A stretch of 64,000 bases of DNA from Nitrospira sp. CG24A (lineage in GTDB: Bacteria > Nitrospirota > Nitrospiria > Nitrospirales > Nitrospiraceae): assembly GCA_002869925.2 (NCBI GenBank), contig NEWT02000037.1:179231-243230 (forward strand), read 5' to 3'. The position numbers and the translations under genes were made by a program. Within the stretch, counting starts at the first letter, position 1, and the number at the start of each line of letters is the position of its first letter. A model generated the notes under the pieces. It was not told the DNA's origin and did not search any database. It saw only the letters and a program-made list of their open reading frames with translations. Below are positions 33,108 through 43,276 of this stretch, piece after piece.

Positions 33108-34304
33108 ATGGGATTAGGCGACGGATTTTATCGCATTAAACGACTACCGCCGTATGTATTTGCCCAGGTGCAGAGTCTCAAACTCGAGGCTCGCCAGCAG
33201 GGTGAAGACATTATCGATTTTGGAATGGGTAACCCGGACCAACCGACGCCGAGCCATATCGTCGAGAAGATGATCGAGGCGGCACGGAAGGGAAAAAATC
33301 ATCGGTACTCGGCCTCGCGTGGCATTACAAAACTGCGGCATGCGATCACCGGTTGGTACAAGCGGAATTACGGTGTCGATCTGGATCCTGAGACCGAGAC
33401 CATCGTCACAATCGGCTCGAAAGAAGGTTTAGCACATTTGGCGCTGGCCTTGATCGGACCCGGCGACGTCGTGCTGACGCCGACGCCGACCTATCCCATT
33501 CATATGTACAGTTTCATTATTGCGGGGGGGGAAGTCCGTGGGATTGAGTTACGACCGGACAGCGATTTCTTCGACGAGTTGCAGCGGGTCTATCGCCAGA
33601 CCTTTCCGAGGCCGAAGATCTTGGTCATCAATTTCCCACACAATCCCACCACGGCCGTAGTGGACCTCGAATTTTTCAAGAAGATCGTCACCTTTGCCAA
33701 AGAACATTCCGTGATCGTCATTCATGACCTGGCCTATGCCGACTTGGTCTTCGACGGATATAAGGCGCCGAGCTTCTTGCAGGTTCCTGGGGCCAAGGAT
33801 GTCGGCGTCGAGTTCTATACTCTCTCCAAGGCCTACAACATGCCCGGTTGGCGCGTGGGCTTTTGTTGCGGTAACCGCGAGGTGGTCGGGGCCTTGGCCA
33901 AGATTAAGAGTTATCTGGATTACGGTATTTTCCAACCTCTCCAGATTGCCAGCGTCATCGCCCTTAATGGACCTCAGGATTGTGTCAAGGAAACAGTCTT
34001 GCGATATCAGAAGCGTCGCGATGTGTTGGTGAGTGGACTGAATCGCATTGGGTGGCAGGTGGATAAGCCGGTCGCTACGATGTTCGTTTGGGCCAGGATT
34101 CCACTGCCCTACCGTTCTATGGGGTCGCTGGAATTTTCGAAACTCTTGCTGCGCGAAGCGAAAGTAGCGGTGTCTCCCGGGATCGGGTTCGGCGAAGGCG
34201 GGGATGAGTATGTGCGGTTCGGCCTTGTCGAAAACGAACATCGCACGCGACAAGCGGTGCGAGGCATCCGGAAAACCCTGAAGCTTGAGGGCTCGGAAAC
34301 ATGA
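33108..34304 (+). CDS. Class I/II aminotransferase (AlaC-like alanine/LL-DAP aminotransferase group)
   Basis: 398 aa. It is a fold-type I PLP enzyme with PLP lysine Lys241 in [16 protein letters not shown]. Other motifs are [31 protein letters not shown] and [11 protein letters not shown]. The group contains alanine transaminase AlaC and relatives of LL-diaminopimelate aminotransferase, so the exact substrate is uncertain. Its stop overlaps the hom start by 4 bp (ATGA), tying it to aspartate-family synthesis. Confidence 0.88.
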
Positions 34305-35614
34305 TGTCGCGTGTGGGCGTCGGCATCATTGGGTTCGGAACGGTTGGGACGGGTGTCGCAAAGATTCTGTTGGAGAACGTCGCCTTGATCAGCCGCCGGG
34401 TCGGTGTGCCGATCGAGCTTGTTCGCATTGCCGACCTCGATACGACACGCGATCGAGGTGTTGCGCTGCCGCCCGGCCTGCTCACAACCGATGCAAAGCA
34501 GATTCTCGCCGATCCGTCGATCGACATCATCGTGGAATTGATCGGAGGCTGCGATGCAGCCAAACGCATCATTCTGGAATCCATCGCGGCGGGGAAGCAT
34601 GTTGTGACTGCCAATAAGGCCTTGCTCGCGTTACATGGAGAAGAAATATTTGCGGCGGCGTCCCGCGCGAATATCGACTTAGGTTTCGAAGCGAGCGTGG
34701 GCGGAGGGATTCCCGTCATCCAGGTGTTGAGGGAAGGGCTGGCGGCCAACACCATCCAATCTATTTATGGGATCATCAACGGAACGGCTAATTACATTCT
34801 CTCACGCATGACCCATGAAGGCCAGAGTTTTGAGACGGTACTCGATGAAGCGAAGCAGGCCGGGTATGCCGAAGCGGATCCGACCTTCGATGTAGCCGGT
34901 ATCGATTCCGCGCACAAGTTGGCCATTCTAGTGGCGCTGGCCTATGGGACACCGGTCAATGTCAAAGAGGTGTATACCGAGGGGATTACTCACATTACAC
35001 CGCTCGACATCGCGTTCGCCAAGGAGTTCGGCTATACCATCAAGCTGCTGGGTATTGCCAAGTTAGTCGGCGACGAAATCGAAGCCCGAGTGCATCCCAC
35101 GATGCTGCCATCCTCATCTCCAATCGCCCAAGTCGAGGGAGTCTACAACGCGATCCAACTCGTCGGCGATGCGGTGGGCGACGTGGTGCTCTATGGTCGT
35201 GGCGCGGGATCCATGCCAACCGGCAGTGCGGTGGTCGGCGATCTCATCGCGATTGCGCGCAACTTCCTGAAGGGAGCGGTCGGACGGGTGCCGCCCGTTT
35301 CATTCCAGCAAAACCAGCGTCGCCCGATTCGTATACGAACGATGGATGAAATCAGCTCGCTCTATTACCTCAGGTTTATGGTGTCGGACCGCCCAGGTGT
35401 CTTGTCGCACATTGCAGGGGAGTTGGGCCGGTGTGGGATCAGTATTTCGTCTGTTCTTCAACAAGGGCGACGTGAAGGACACACGGTTCCGATCGTGATC
35501 AAGACCCATACCGCTATGGAGCGTGATGTGCAAACGGCTTTGAGGGCGATCAATCGCATGGCCTTCATTTCCGAGCCCACCACGTTGATCAGGGTTGAGG
35601 GCAAGGACGAGTGA
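34301..35614 (+). CDS. hom: Homoserine dehydrogenase
   Basis: 437 aa. It reduces aspartate semialdehyde to homoserine. It has the NAD(P)-binding [45 protein letters not shown], the catalytic region [14 protein letters not shown] and [21 protein letters not shown]-terminal ACT domain ([24 protein letters not shown]) suggests threonine feedback control. It overlaps both neighbours by 4 bp. Confidence 0.96.
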
Positions 35615-36678
35615 ATGCGATGAATTGCTGGCGTGGTGTGATCGAGGAGTATCGCAAGTTTCTTCCGGTCACCGACCGCACCCCTGTGGTGACGCTTGGC
35701 GAAGGTAACACTCCACTCATCAAGGCGACGCGGCTGGCGAAACAGATTGCCCCCGGCATCGACCTCTACCTCAAATTTGAAGGCATGAATCCGACGGGAT
35801 CATTCAAGGATCGCGGCATGACGATGGCCATTTCAAAGGCTGTTGAATCAGGCGCCAAGGCTGTGATCTGCGCCTCAACGGGAAATACCTCAGCATCCGC
35901 AGCAGCCTATGGCGCCCGGGCTGGGCTGGCGGTTTATGTGTTGATTCCTGCCGGGAAGATTGCCATGGGGAAACTGTCTCAGGCCATGATGCACCAAGCC
36001 ACGGTGATCCAGATTGAAGGAAATTTCGACCAAGCCTTGACCATCGTCAAAGAATTGTCGGCGACCTATCGCATCGAGTTGGTCAACTCGATCAATCCCT
36101 ATCGGATTGAGGGGCAGAAAACTGGTGCGATGGAAGTCTGCGATCAGCTCGGCGATGCTCCGACTGTTCACGCATTGCCGGTTGGGAACGCCGGCAACAT
36201 AACGGCGTATTGGAAGGGGTACCAGGAATACCGTGCAGCCAATCAATCCACACGGTTGCCCCGTATGGTTGGGTTTCAGGCGGCCGGTGCGGCACCGATC
36301 GTACTTGGCTGCATTGTCGAGAATCCGCAAACGGTCGCTTCGGCGATCCGGATCGGCAATCCTGCCAGCTGGGAAACGGCTATAACTGCCGTGAAGGAAT
36401 CAGCGGGAGCGATTGATTCGGTGACGGATGAAGAGATTCTCCAGGCCTATCGCGCGGTGGCGGCGGCGGAAGGAGTGTTCTGTGAGCCGGCATCCGCCGC
36501 ATCGGTTGCCGGCGTCATGAAGCTGAACAAGCAGGGCGCATTGCGTGAAGGCGAGATCGTGGTATGCACCTTGACCGGCCATGGATTGAAAGATGCCGAC
36601 ACAGCCATCAATGTATCGGCACAGCCGAAAACCGTTAGGGCGACGCGGGAGGATGTCGCTCGTTTGCTAAGGGTGTAG
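35611..36678 (+). CDS. thrC: Threonine synthase
   Basis: 355 aa from GTG 35611, overlapping the hom stop. It converts O-phosphohomoserine to threonine. The PLP lysine is Lys66 in [28 protein letters not shown] and [18 protein letters not shown] are typical. It is the short bacterial form without the N-terminal extension. It requires a homoserine kinase product, yet no GHMP-type thrB is present in this operon; see the next gene. Confidence 0.96.
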
Positions 36679-36700: not shown

Positions 36701-37942
36701 ATGAAACATGTGATTCTCCATATCGATGGGATGGCCGACCACCCACGGGAGGAATTGGGCGGACGAACACCGCTTCAAGCGGCGTCAACCCCTCATCTGG
36801 ATCAGCTGGCGCAAAGCGGGGAACTCGGGCTTCTGGCCGCGAATTCTGAGAACGTGCGACATGGGAGCGGTCTGATGGGAACGGCTATTCTCGGATACGA
36901 TCCCAAGAAGTACTACCAGGGCCCCGGCCCGCTTGAAGCGGCGAGTCTGGGGGTCGCTGTTGGCGAGCATGATGTGGTGTATTGCTGCACGATGGTCTCG
37001 TTACGGTCAGACGCTCCGCCTGGAAGTAAGGGCGGATTGAACGAAATCAAGAAGCTTGGACCGCACGTGGAGATGGATGATGCAACCGCAGGCTTGATTT
37101 CCACGGAAGAGGCTCGAGAATTGATCGAGGCGATCAATGAACAGCTTGGGTCTGAGATGATTCAGTTCTATCCAGGGGTAGGCCACCGTCATCTCATGGT
37201 GTGGGTCAACGGGAAGTCGCGAGCAGTGTGTATGGATCCACAACTATTGGTCGGTCGACTGATTGCCGATGTGTTGCCGACGGGAGATGGGTCCGACATT
37301 CTTTGGAAACTCATGGACGCCTCGTTTCAGATCTTGCGAGATCATCCCCTTAACGATGAACGCTTGGATGCAGGGCAGAAGCCGGCCAATTGTCTCTGGC
37401 TCTGGGGCCAAGGCCGGCCTGTGCTTTGGCCAAGTCTCTCTGAGCGATTGAAAACGACCGGTGTGGTGGTCTCGCAGAGTGATGTTCATTGCGGACTCGG
37501 CATCATGGCCGGGCTTGAAGCCGTGGACGGAGCAAGATTGGCCGGTGGGGATCTTCGTACCCAAGCGGCGGTCGCCCTGGAGGAGCTGAAGAAGAAGGAT
37601 TTTGCATACGTGCATGTGGAGTTGTCGGACGAGGTCGTCTATGGGTCGGACGTCGCGGCCAAGGTGAAGGGTATCGAAGCGGTCGATCGAGAACTGGTCG
37701 GGCCGTTGCTCGAAGGACTGGCGCAGTTAGGCCCTCATCGTATCGTGACGGTGTGCGACGGAGGCACTGCACACCATAGCCAAGCCGTGGAAGGTCCAGC
37801 AATCTTTGCCTATCGTGAGAGTGCCGCATCCTCCACTGCCGAGGCCGGACGGAGATTTACCGAGGTTGACGCTCGCAGCTCGACCGTGCCTCCTCGTGAT
37901 GCGACGAAATTCGTTGTGCGGCTGTTTGCAAAAGGATCCTGA
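36701..37942 (+). CDS. Archaeal-type phosphoglycerate-mutase homologue; proposed homoserine kinase
   Basis: 413 aa. It belongs to the cofactor-independent aPGM/alkaline-phosphatase superfamily. It starts [31 protein letters not shown] with metal Asp9, and the nucleophile Ser56 is in [15 protein letters not shown]. Members of this subgroup lie next to hom and thrC in many bacteria and have been proposed to phosphorylate homoserine. Several canonical ligands look changed: the residue after Ser56 is Gly rather than Asp, the DEAGH-type motif reads SDEVVYG, and the PDHPT-type motif reads CDGGTAHH. Activity is therefore uncertain. Confidence 0.8.
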
Positions 37943-37947
37943 CGGTC

Positions 37948-39189
37948 GTGGCGTTGATAGTTCAGAAGTATGGGGGAACGTCGGTGGGCACGATCGAGCG
38001 GATCCGCTCTGTGGGCGACCGCATCGAGAGGGCGCACAAGGACGGCCATCGCGTCGTGGTTGTGCTGTCCGCGATGAGCGGCGAAACAGACCGATTACTT
38101 CGGTTGGCGCATGAGATTACGCCGCTGCCGGACGATCGCGAACTCGATATGCTCCTGTCGACTGGAGAGCGAGTGACCATTGCCTTATTGGCGATGGCCT
38201 TGCGGGCCAGGGGATTGGATGCCCAATCATTTACGGGGCGTCAAGTCGGGATCATGACAGACAGCGCTCATACGAAGGCGCGCATTACTCGTGTGAGCGC
38301 GGAGCGAATCTGTGAGGCGCTGCTCAATGGGATTATTCCGGTGGTCGCCGGGTTTCAAGGGATTAATGAGCAGTCAGATGTCACGACATTGGGGCGCGGA
38401 GGATCCGATCTCACGGCCGTTGCATTGGCGGCAGCGCTAAAAGCGGATCGCTGTATCATTTTTACCGACGTCGATGGTGTGTATACCTCAGATCCCAACA
38501 TTGTGCCTGCGGCTCGACGAATCGACAAGATTTCCTATGAGGAAATGCTGGAAATGGCAAGTCTGGGCGCGAAAGTGTTGCAGGGCCGTTCCGTCGAATT
38601 TGCTGCGAAGTTCAATGTGCCGGTGGAAGTGAACTCCAGCTTCAAAGAAGGAAAGGGGACACTCGTGACGCGTGAAGATCAGGATATGGAGGCGGTCGCG
38701 GTGTCGGGCGTGACGGGTGATCGCAATCAGGCCAAGATTACGATTGTGGGTGTGCCGGACAAGCCAGGGATTGCATCCAAGCTGTTCGGGCCGGTGGCGA
38801 AGGCCAACATCAATGTCGACATGATCATACAGAATATGAGCCAGTCGGGCATGACGGATATTTCCTTCACGATTCCACGGGTAGACATCAAGAAAGCTCT
38901 GCCGTTGATTCAGGACGTGGCGAAAGGTATTGAGGCCAAATCGGTTGCCGTGACTGAGGCGATCGCAAAGGTTTCGTTGGTCGGCGTCGGGATGCGCTCT
39001 CATTCAGGAGTCGCCGCCAAGATGTTCGAAGTCTTGGCGGAGGAAGGCGTGAACATTCTCATGATCAGCACGTCGGAGATCAAGATCTCCTGCGTCATCG
39101 ATGAAAAGTATGTTGAGCTTGCGATGCGTTCGCTCCATTCCGCATTCGGCCTGGATCAGTCGCCGGCAGGAGACCGAATTGCGAAGTAG
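37948..39189 (+). CDS. lysC: Aspartate kinase
   Basis: 413 aa from GTG 37948, only 5 bp behind the mutase homologue. It catalyses the first step of the aspartate family. The kinase part has [46 protein letters not shown] and [12 protein letters not shown]. Two C-terminal ACT domains ([59 protein letters not shown]) indicate feedback inhibition by lysine and/or threonine. Confidence 0.96.
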
Positions 39190-39247: not shown

Positions 39248-40900
39248 ATGGCTCGAAAATCTTCACACCCACGACTCTCGCAAGGCAAGCCGGTCGGTGC
39301 TACGCCGTCCGGTACAGCTCCGTCTGCCGCTCGGCTGGCAGCGCTAGAGATTTATGATACGACCTTACGGGACGGAGCTCAGGCCGAGGATGTGACTTTT
39401 TCGGCCGAAGACAAGGTTCGGGTTGCCCAACAGTTGGACGGTCTAGGCGTCCAATTCATCGAAGGCGGGTGGCCCGGGGCAAATCCAAAAGACATCGAGT
39501 TCTTTCGGATGATCAAGACTGTGCCGTTGCAGACCGCGACGGTGGTGGCGTTCGGATCGACGAGAAAATCGAGCAACGCCGTGCAGAAGGATCCAAATAT
39601 CCGGGCGTTGCTGGAGGCTGAGACGACGATCATTACGCTCTTCGGAAAAACCTGGTCGCTGCACGTGACCGATGCACTCGGGATTTCCCTTGTGAAGAAT
39701 CTCGAACTCATCAGCGATTCCGTGGCCCATCTCCGCTCGAAAGGCCGGAGGGTGTTTTACGATGCCGAGCATTTCTTTGACGGATACAAGACGAATCCGG
39801 ACTACGCGCTGGAGACCATTCGTCATGCCGTTGCAGCTGGGGCCGAGCGGGTGATTCTCTGCGACACCAATGGCGGATCGATGCCCTGGGACATCAAAGA
39901 AATTTGCCAGATTGTTCGGCGAGAGTGCGCGGTCCCGTTGGGGATTCACGCGCACAATGATTGTGAAATGGCCGTTGCGAATTCGCTGGTGGCGATCGAA
40001 ACCGGCGTGGTGCAAGTACAGGGGACGATTAACGGGATCGGCGAGCGGTGCGGTAATGCCAATCTCTGCTCGATTATTCCCAATCTTGAACTGAAAATGA
40101 AACGTCCGACGTTAAGAGATCGTCTGAGCCATCTCAAGCGGGTCTCAGGGTTTGTTGCCGAAATTGCGAACCTCATGCCCAATAAGCACCAGCCCTACGT
40201 GGGAGATTCCGCGTTTGCCCATAAGGGAGGGGTTCATATCCATGCGGTACTCAAGAATCCCGCCACCTATGAGCATGTGATTCCTGGCTTGGTCGGCAAT
40301 CACCAGCGTGTGCTGGTATCGGACGCAGCAGGCCGGAGTGGGTTGCTGGAGAAGATTGAGGCGTATGGAATTAAATTGGATAAGAGTCACGCCAAGCTGC
40401 AAGAATTGATCGGTGTGTTGAAGGAGCGCGAAAGTGAAGGCTACCAATTTGAGGCAGCGGAAGGTTCCTTCGAATTGCTCATGAGGAAAGCCATGGGAAC
40501 GCATAGACCGGCGTTCCAACTCTTGGGGTTTCGAGTGATCGTCGAGAAAAGACAAGACCATGGGGCTTCGTCGTCTGAGGCCACCGTGATGGTCAAAGTC
40601 GGTGGTGTGGTGGAGCATGCAGCCGCAGTTGGAGCCGGTCCGGTGAATGCGCTTGACCACGCATTGCGGAAAGCATTGGAAAAATTCTATCCCCAACTCC
40701 GGGAAGTGAAACTGCTCGACTACAAAGTGCGCGTGCTGTCGGCCAATCGCGGGACTGAGTCCAAGGTCCGAGTGTTGATCGAGTCAGGCGACCATAAGGA
40801 TAAATGGGGCACCGTCGGCGTGTCCGAGAACATTATGGAGGCGAGCTGGCAAGCGTTGGCGGACAGTATCGAGTACAAACTACTGTCCAGGGACGAATGA
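39248..40900 (+). CDS. cimA: (R)-citramalate synthase
   Basis: 550 aa. It condenses pyruvate and acetyl-CoA to citramalate, the threonine-independent route to 2-ketobutyrate and isoleucine. The HMGL-like barrel has EIYDTTLRDGAQAEDVTFSAEDK, FIEGGWPGANPKD, CDTNGGSMPW, HAHNDCEMAVANS and NGIGERCGNANL. A C-terminal LeuA regulatory domain (YKVRVLSANRGTESKVRVLIE) suggests isoleucine feedback. It is the last gene of the amino-acid block. Confidence 0.94.
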   Translation: MARKSSHPRLSQGKPVGATPSGTAPSAARLAALEIYDTTLRDGAQAEDVTFSAEDKVRVAQQLDGLGVQFIEGGWPGANPKDIEFFRMIKTVPLQTATVVAFGSTRKSSNAVQKDPNIRALLEAETTIITLFGKTWSLHVTDALGISLVKNLELISDSVAHLRSKGRRVFYDAEHFFDGYKTNPDYALETIRHAVAAGAERVILCDTNGGSMPWDIKEICQIVRRECAVPLGIHAHNDCEMAVANSLVAIETGVVQVQGTINGIGERCGNANLCSIIPNLELKMKRPTLRDRLSHLKRVSGFVAEIANLMPNKHQPYVGDSAFAHKGGVHIHAVLKNPATYEHVIPGLVGNHQRVLVSDAAGRSGLLEKIEAYGIKLDKSHAKLQELIGVLKERESEGYQFEAAEGSFELLMRKAMGTHRPAFQLLGFRVIVEKRQDHGASSSEATVMVKVGGVVEHAAAVGAGPVNALDHALRKALEKFYPQLREVKLLDYKVRVLSANRGTESKVRVLIESGDHKDKWGTVGVSENIMEASWQALADSIEYKLLSRDE

Positions 40901-42167: not shown

Positions 42168-42313
42168 CTGCGCACCTTCCTTTCTTCCCATGAAGACCAT
42201 CGTTGCCCCGATGATCGCCTGATCGCCCGAAGGGTGTCAAATACACCCGCGTGGCTCTTGTGCCTTCGTTAGTGTGCCTCTTACAATACCCGCCTCCAAT
42301 AGCAGCTATCCAA

Positions 42314-43276
42314 ATGCCACTCGATCATTTTGTATCTCAAGTTCATCTAAGGCGTTTCTATTCCCCAAGTCTTGTGAATCGGCTGTATGCCATCAGCAAG
42401 AAGGACATGAAACAATTCTCGCCAAGCTCAAAAGATGTGTGCAGAATTGAGGATGGTAGTACGAATGCCTATCTGAAGGAGGATCGGGCAGTTGAAGAGT
42501 TTCTCAAAACCATTGAACCGAACTATAACACTGCCGTCGAAAAGCTTTTTGACAATAAAATTGATAGAGAGTGCATCTACACTATTGCGGGATTTGTCTC
42601 TTACATACATGCCTGTTCCCCTGCAGGCATGAGAATACACTCAAGGCTACTGCAGGCGAAATCTGAGATGGAGTATTTCATGGCCGATTCCCAAGGCCTG
42701 TTTCCAGCTCCGCCTCCAGAGTTAGGCGGAATGAATTTGACTGAGATCCTAAAAAAAGGAATCGTCAAAATCGATATCGATCCGAAATTTCCTCAGGCGA
42801 TAGGGATAACTTCGATACTCAAAAACGCAGCGATGTTCGGTAACTTCAAGTGGGAACTACTTCACAACGGTTTTGCCGATAGTGCATATTTCACCAGCGA
42901 TTTTCCTATAGCTATTGAAAAATCAGTCGATATGGACGTGATGAATAAGATCGTTCCACTTTCACCAACTCTTGCAATTAGAATACGACCAGATCGCCAG
43001 ATTAACAGAGAGCATGCCGATTTCACTTTTGCAAACTTTAATTATCAGTGCAAAAGACTGAAGCGGGAACAGGTTGCACAGATAAATAGGTTAATTGTTC
43101 GATGTGCTGAAGAAGTGGTGTTTTTTCGCGACAACCATCCGTGGGTGGTTGAGCTTGTTCGCAGGAACAGGAAGTATCGCATGGAGTTGCGCACTGATAC
43201 GACGCCCATTGGAAATGGAATGGCCATGTTTTATAGCGAAACAATAGCCGAAACTCCGAAATCAATCGGCGGCTAG
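42314..43276 (+). CDS. DUF4238 family protein
   Basis: 320 aa from ATG 42314 (MPLDHFVSQVHLRRF); the open frame starts further upstream. The N-terminal H-x-V-x-x-x-x-LRRF and LYAISKKDMKQF segments, the central helical region and the SDFPIAIE / VPLSPTLAIRI block match the DUF4238 pattern. Function is unknown; the family is scattered among accessory genes. Its codon and base use is AT-richer than the housekeeping neighbours, suggesting horizontal acquisition. Confidence 0.75.
   Translation: MPLDHFVSQVHLRRFYSPSLVNRLYAISKKDMKQFSPSSKDVCRIEDGSTNAYLKEDRAVEEFLKTIEPNYNTAVEKLFDNKIDRECIYTIAGFVSYIHACSPAGMRIHSRLLQAKSEMEYFMADSQGLFPAPPPELGGMNLTEILKKGIVKIDIDPKFPQAIGITSILKNAAMFGNFKWELLHNGFADSAYFTSDFPIAIEKSVDMDVMNKIVPLSPTLAIRIRPDRQINREHADFTFANFNYQCKRLKREQVAQINRLIVRCAEEVVFFRDNHPWVVELVRRNRKYRMELRTDTTPIGNGMAMFYSETIAETPKSIGG

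Follow-up and report, generated by a model that had tools for sequence, protein, structure and literature searches.

A degenerate ThrB2-type protein in the threonine gene cluster of Nitrospira is probably a retained pseudoenzyme displaced by ThrH

The open reading frame between thrC and lysC of Nitrospira sp. CG24A, here called X, encodes an aPGM-fold protein that is orthologous to the proposed homoserine kinase ThrB2 (TIGR02535). We consider it likely that X is a retained pseudoenzyme, descended from ThrB2 and catalytically displaced by ThrH, with a cap domain that may serve a role in the aspartate pathway. The DNA analysed, called the window, is a stretch of 64,000 nucleotides in which X lies in the following cluster:

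33108..34304, + strand: dapL, LL-DAP aminotransferase-like aminotransferase (above the PRK08175 cut-off)
34301..35614, + strand: hom, homoserine dehydrogenase (546 bits, cut-off 205)
35611..36678, + strand: thrC, threonine synthase (TIGR00260, 321 bits, cut-off 167)
36701..37942, + strand: X, aPGM-fold protein of 413 amino acids, ATG to TGA, predicted to be catalytically dead (open reading frame, profile, alignment and fold prediction)
37948..39189, + strand: lysC, aspartate kinase (638 bits, cut-off 346)
39248..40900, + strand: cimA, citramalate synthase (756 bits, cut-off 450)

The order dapL-hom-thrC-X-lysC-cimA was compared with that in other genomes, and (dapL-)hom-thrC-X-lysC-cimA was common to many of them across the phylum, showing that X and the intact proteins described below are orthologues at one locus. 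Open reading frame and profile searches bore out a sequence-only reading of this DNA, which had named X, the adjacent hom and thrC genes and the aPGM family. X matched PF10143 (143 bits) and PF01676, and on the aPGM profile TIGR00306 it barely passed the cut-off (320.8 bits, cut-off 320). On TIGR02535 it stayed below the cut-off with 313.5 bits against 446.3, and on PRK04200 with 325 bits against 426, whereas its intact Nitrospirota orthologues reached 484-560 bits on TIGR02535. Clustering with threonine genes, a trait of TIGR02535, was observed for X, as hom-thrC-X-lysC is conserved. A scan for promoters and terminators gave nothing above chance. Downstream of the thr cluster, an open reading frame of 341 amino acids was found at window positions 42251-43276.

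The AlphaFold2 model of X had a mean pLDDT of 90.8 and a pTM of 0.90, with low confidence (pLDDT < 50) at residues 357-362, the former third-ligand loop. Its best PDB matches were the archaeal aPGMs 2ZKT, 3KD8 and 3IDD (VIA-align Z 31-38). The superposition gave Z 37.8 and rmsd 3.6 over 358 residues for 2ZKT, and Z 31.7 and rmsd 6.8 over 356 residues for 3KD8. X matches the archaeal aPGM fold over its whole length.

The active site was read at seven positions, which we take to form two metal sites: D9, the nucleophilic serine and the D and H of the DH pair in one, and the D and H of DxxxH with a third H in the other. They were chosen according to what is established about catalysis in the phosphoglycerate mutase family. 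The intact orthologue L116 was used for the numbering and as the reference, and the sites in the window are:

36725..36727, + strand: codon of D9, former metal ligand, kept in the window X; G, E or S in other Nitrospiraceae
36866..36868, + strand: codon of S56, former nucleophile; N, G or R in close relatives
37628..37642, + strand: DEVVY in place of DxxxH, the metal ligand His being replaced by Tyr 314 (alignment)
37757..37777, + strand: DGGTAHH in place of DHxTP...H, the second His ligand being replaced by Gly 354 (alignment and model)

The motifs HGSGLMG (residues 54-60), SDEVVYG (309-315) and CDGGTAHH (352-359) read as had been quoted earlier. Compared with the intact orthologues, X has Y in place of H314 and G in place of the His in the DH pair (354), and nothing in it aligns with the third His ligand. 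It retains D9, S56, D310 and D353, which makes four of the seven two-metal residues of TIGR02535 (D, S, D-H, D-H, H). Unlike the archaeal aPGMs (TIGR00306), it lacks the catalytic metal ligands. A function of X as the glycolytic phosphoglycerate mutase was rejected on account of these losses and of a separate PF00300 protein in the genome (160 bits), which reads as a cofactor-dependent phosphoglycerate mutase. A second PF01676 protein in the genome was rejected as an iPGM, being a phosphopentomutase-like open reading frame by sequence.

Across the order Nitrospirales, zero to five of the seven positions are kept. D9 has become G in genus g2 and E in g4 and in g6. In g1, H314 is replaced by Y and H354 by G, S, A or W, and g3 has P at position 354. 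The claim that the nucleophilic serine is kept while several ligands differ thus holds for the window X, but not for its close relatives with N, G or R at this position; G, N or R was also found in many other Nitrospirales. The comparison with Nitrospira orthologues that had been proposed for these positions was carried out, and it confirmed that several ligands differ, with losses that are mosaic between the genera. R75, N97, Y162, P179, H181, D182, T281 and K288 are lost as well in the Nitrospirales proteins and otherwise invariant in the intact ones (R75, N97, H181, D182, T281 and K288 at 98-100%). R163 and H164, possible substrate contacts, are kept.

It is improbable in our view that X still phosphorylates homoserine through a rearranged or metal-light active site. 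Such an activity would be in keeping with the strictly conserved position in the thr operon, the low dN/dS, the intact predicted fold and the presence of D310 and D353 in most members of family f1. The positions D9, S56, H314, H354 and the third His are, however, lost in different genera, and none of the ligand positions is universal in the order. Substrate-pocket residues are gone, and close relatives of the window X are without the serine. The pair H358-H359 was considered as a source of compensating ligands and rejected, since it varies within the window genus. In addition, three ThrH-bearing genomes without X retain hom and thrC. The mosaic loss of catalytic residues across the whole order is harder to explain by an active site that has changed under constraint than by a loss of catalysis. 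The window X itself may have some residual or altered chemistry with its four remaining positions.

The source of O-phosphohomoserine was then sought in the whole genome, which is 95% complete. No GHMP-type thrB was found in it (TIGR00191, cut-off 168, best match 34 bits), in agreement with the sequence-only reading, which had called for a genome-wide thrB search. The weak match was rejected as a homoserine kinase, as its score and setting suggest an IspE-like protein. An APH-type ThrB was not found either (TIGR00938, cut-off 256, best match 19 bits); here the weak match is an APH-like protein adjoining a nucleotidyltransferase and was also rejected. In a family-level search for a second SKI gene besides aroK, as a candidate for a shikimate-kinase-like homoserine kinase of the DvMF_0971 kind, a single SKI-family gene scored above its cut-off.

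A gene for ThrH is present outside the window at C31:289991-290578, about 74 kb from X. It scored 302.2 bits on TIGR02137 (cut-off 223.4) and 314.7 bits on PRK13582 (cut-off 133), and over 197 residues its product shares 62% identity with the Pseudomonas aeruginosa ThrH of solved structure (1RKU), including the HAD motif I DLEGVLVPE of the catalytic site. The P. aeruginosa enzyme does not work as an ATP-dependent kinase: it dephosphorylates phosphoserine and can also pass the phosphate group of phosphoserine on to homoserine (PMC1079889). A ThrH-like gene in a Geobacter threonine cluster has been proposed to fill the equivalent gap (PMC2700814). By this likeness, ThrH as a phosphoserine:homoserine phosphotransferase probably carries out the missing step of threonine synthesis in Nitrospira. 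The sequence-only reading had left it between a diverged mechanism of X and a kinase elsewhere; ThrH, far above its cut-off, favours the second option, and the mosaic losses do not favour the first.

None of the sampled Nitrospirales genomes had a SerB above its cut-off, and ThrH occurs there without ThrB and SerB above the cut-offs. ThrH could therefore serve both serine and threonine synthesis. It could also be a phosphoserine phosphatase only, needed for serine, while a homoserine kinase of unknown kind makes O-phosphohomoserine and X has no part in this step; catalogues are known to miss novel homoserine kinases (PMC5764234, PMC7311316). This seems quite unlikely to us, as the P. aeruginosa protein has both activities (PMC1079889) and the distribution of ThrH matches the lost catalytic X and the absent ThrB.

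The distribution was determined in 148 Nitrospirota genomes, in which ThrH and GHMP ThrB were scored by the profile cut-offs; absences in draft genomes can reflect assembly gaps, and the ThrH check covered the families other than f27 and f33. ThrH was above the cut-off in 37 of the 148 genomes, which are exactly those of the order Nitrospirales (families f1 and f2). GHMP ThrB was found in 28 of 148, both together in none, and a homologue of X in 109. When neither ThrH nor ThrB was present, all 47 X orthologues examined were intact at seven of seven positions. In the ThrH genomes none of 34 was intact, one to five positions being kept (two to six lost) with a subset that differs by genus. Fisher's test for this contrast gave p ~1e-23; because the cases are related, the association is largely one phylogenetic contrast and not 81 independent cases. 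Among the ThrB genomes, three of four X homologues were intact and that of G131 kept zero of seven. One of the three, from G020, is a remote relative and not an orthologue, and intact X persists in two ThrB-bearing families (G119, G007).

In a wider look within the class, the proteins of f3, f30 and f32 were intact. Those of f33 kept four to seven positions and f27 kept five, with the nucleophilic Ser changed to Gly; f1 kept one to five, f2 zero to three and f4 none. Partly eroded sites were seen in L213-L218 of f33, some without the third His and one carrying N in place of D9, which reads as an intermediate stage. In f4, the X orthologues L149, L209 and L210 have none of the seven ligands and lie at the same locus, and G131 of this family has a GHMP ThrB and an NEQ cap motif in common with Nitrospirales. 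In a quick tree, the Nitrospirales X proteins formed one clade with an SH-aLRT of 99, and the dead X of f4 (G131) joined them in one clade with a support of 32; the two may share one origin. Two further proteins were noted. L237 (G250:C1:1139534-1140775), which is not part of the thr cluster, is an additional, remote aPGM-like protein that keeps six of the seven ligand positions and has C in place of D9, and a second, distant threonine-synthase homologue (L199, L200 and others, 36-38% identity) occurs in all nine Nitrospirota genomes searched for it.

X is missing from some genomes. In the three ThrH genomes mentioned above (G065, G081 and G133) it has been cleanly deleted from an otherwise intact operon, leaving a gap of about 60-180 bases between thrC and lysC. 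None of the eleven g7 genomes listed has it, and it is also missing from the cluster of the ThrB-bearing G139. The copy in G202 (L227, G202:C10:275947-276987) lies in a thr cluster that is normal in other respects, has four stops (TGA three times, TAG once) and is apparently a pseudogene caught in decay.

In the window genus, X is under purifying selection. The median dN/dS of X was 0.117, compared with 0.068 in hom and 0.062 in both thrC and lysC, computed from pairs that are not independent. The pairwise identity of the cap (residues 58-240) was 67% in Nitrospirales versus 55% in the intact orthologues, and that of the C-terminal catalytic part 41% versus 51%. Residues E41, K117-K118, R139, N146-E147-Q148, S151-E152 and Q155, in the cap and nearby, are fixed in Nitrospirales and variable in the intact proteins. 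The most marked segment is:

37115..37171, + strand: cap-domain block, residues 139-157, nearly invariant in Nitrospirales and variable in intact orthologues

We also considered that X is a functionless, decaying relic that lies between thrC and lysC by chance. It does evolve faster than its neighbours (X/thrC distance ratio 2.8 versus 1.6 for the intact orthologues), and it has been deleted or pseudogenised in parts of f2. Yet every Nitrospiraceae copy that was read whole is a full-length open frame, the dN/dS is 0.12, and in Nitrospirales 80 columns reach a conservation of 95% or more, newly fixed residues being present in the cap. A relic is therefore unlikely.

Taken together, the conserved cap, the cluster position and the lost chemistry suggest that X binds a ligand or a partner, and we infer a regulatory role of this kind in the aspartate pathway. 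The ancestor of X would have been an active, metal-dependent homoserine-phosphorylating enzyme of the aPGM type (ThrB2/TIGR02535), a type that most other Nitrospirota still have intact at this locus. ThrH would have taken over the reaction in Nitrospirales, converting phosphoserine and homoserine to serine and to the O-phosphohomoserine on which ThrC acts. X would then have lost its metal site and substrate contacts. Most Nitrospiraceae would have retained it as a pseudoenzyme with the cap under strong selection, most likely as a binder of a pathway metabolite or of a partner among the aspartate-pathway enzymes, and parts of f2 would have dropped it. That X is without catalysis and that ThrH is active in Nitrospira as a phosphotransferase is what we infer from the sequences. 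ThrH may also have arrived after X had already been freed by ThrB, since genomes of f3, f4 and f5 of the class have a GHMP ThrB. More tentatively, at somewhat less than even chance, the displaced enzyme is kept family-wide as a non-catalytic regulator of aspartate and threonine synthesis, its cap acting as a metabolite sensor or as a binding site for Hom, ThrC or LysC.

Among the closest known systems is TIGR02535/ThrB2 with BT2402 of Bacteroides thetaiotaomicron, with which X shares the fold, full-length homology and the orthologous place in the thr operon. Unlike BT2402, which keeps its zinc sites (PMC9765024), X is without several ligands and below the family cut-off (313 versus 446). The genetics of BT2402 suggest a homoserine-phosphorylating role (PMC7311316, PMC9026213), as the TIGRFAM curators had proposed. 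BT2402 is needed for threonine prototrophy yet did not complement an E. coli thrB mutant, and homoserine phosphorylation is a proposed activity for TIGR02535 as a whole (PMC7311316). The TIGR02535-like Dehre_1608 in a cobalamin operon has been proposed to be an L-threonine kinase (PMC4285132), and the family may phosphorylate more than homoserine.

Intact X where no other known homoserine-phosphorylating enzyme was seen, together with its decay or loss in most ThrH or ThrB lineages, gives independent genomic support for the role of TIGR02535. The title claim of the earlier reading, a phosphoglycerate mutase homologue in place of thrB, probably does not apply to X in view of ThrH and the mosaic losses; the intact ThrB2 orthologues of other Nitrospirota probably do stand in for thrB. 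The distribution in the phylum tells which proteins merit an assay for homoserine phosphorylation. Annotation pipelines would mislabel the Nitrospira X as a phosphoglycerate mutase or a homoserine kinase. In conclusion, the analysis points to ThrH as the step that would couple serine and threonine synthesis in these nitrifiers of wide ecological importance.
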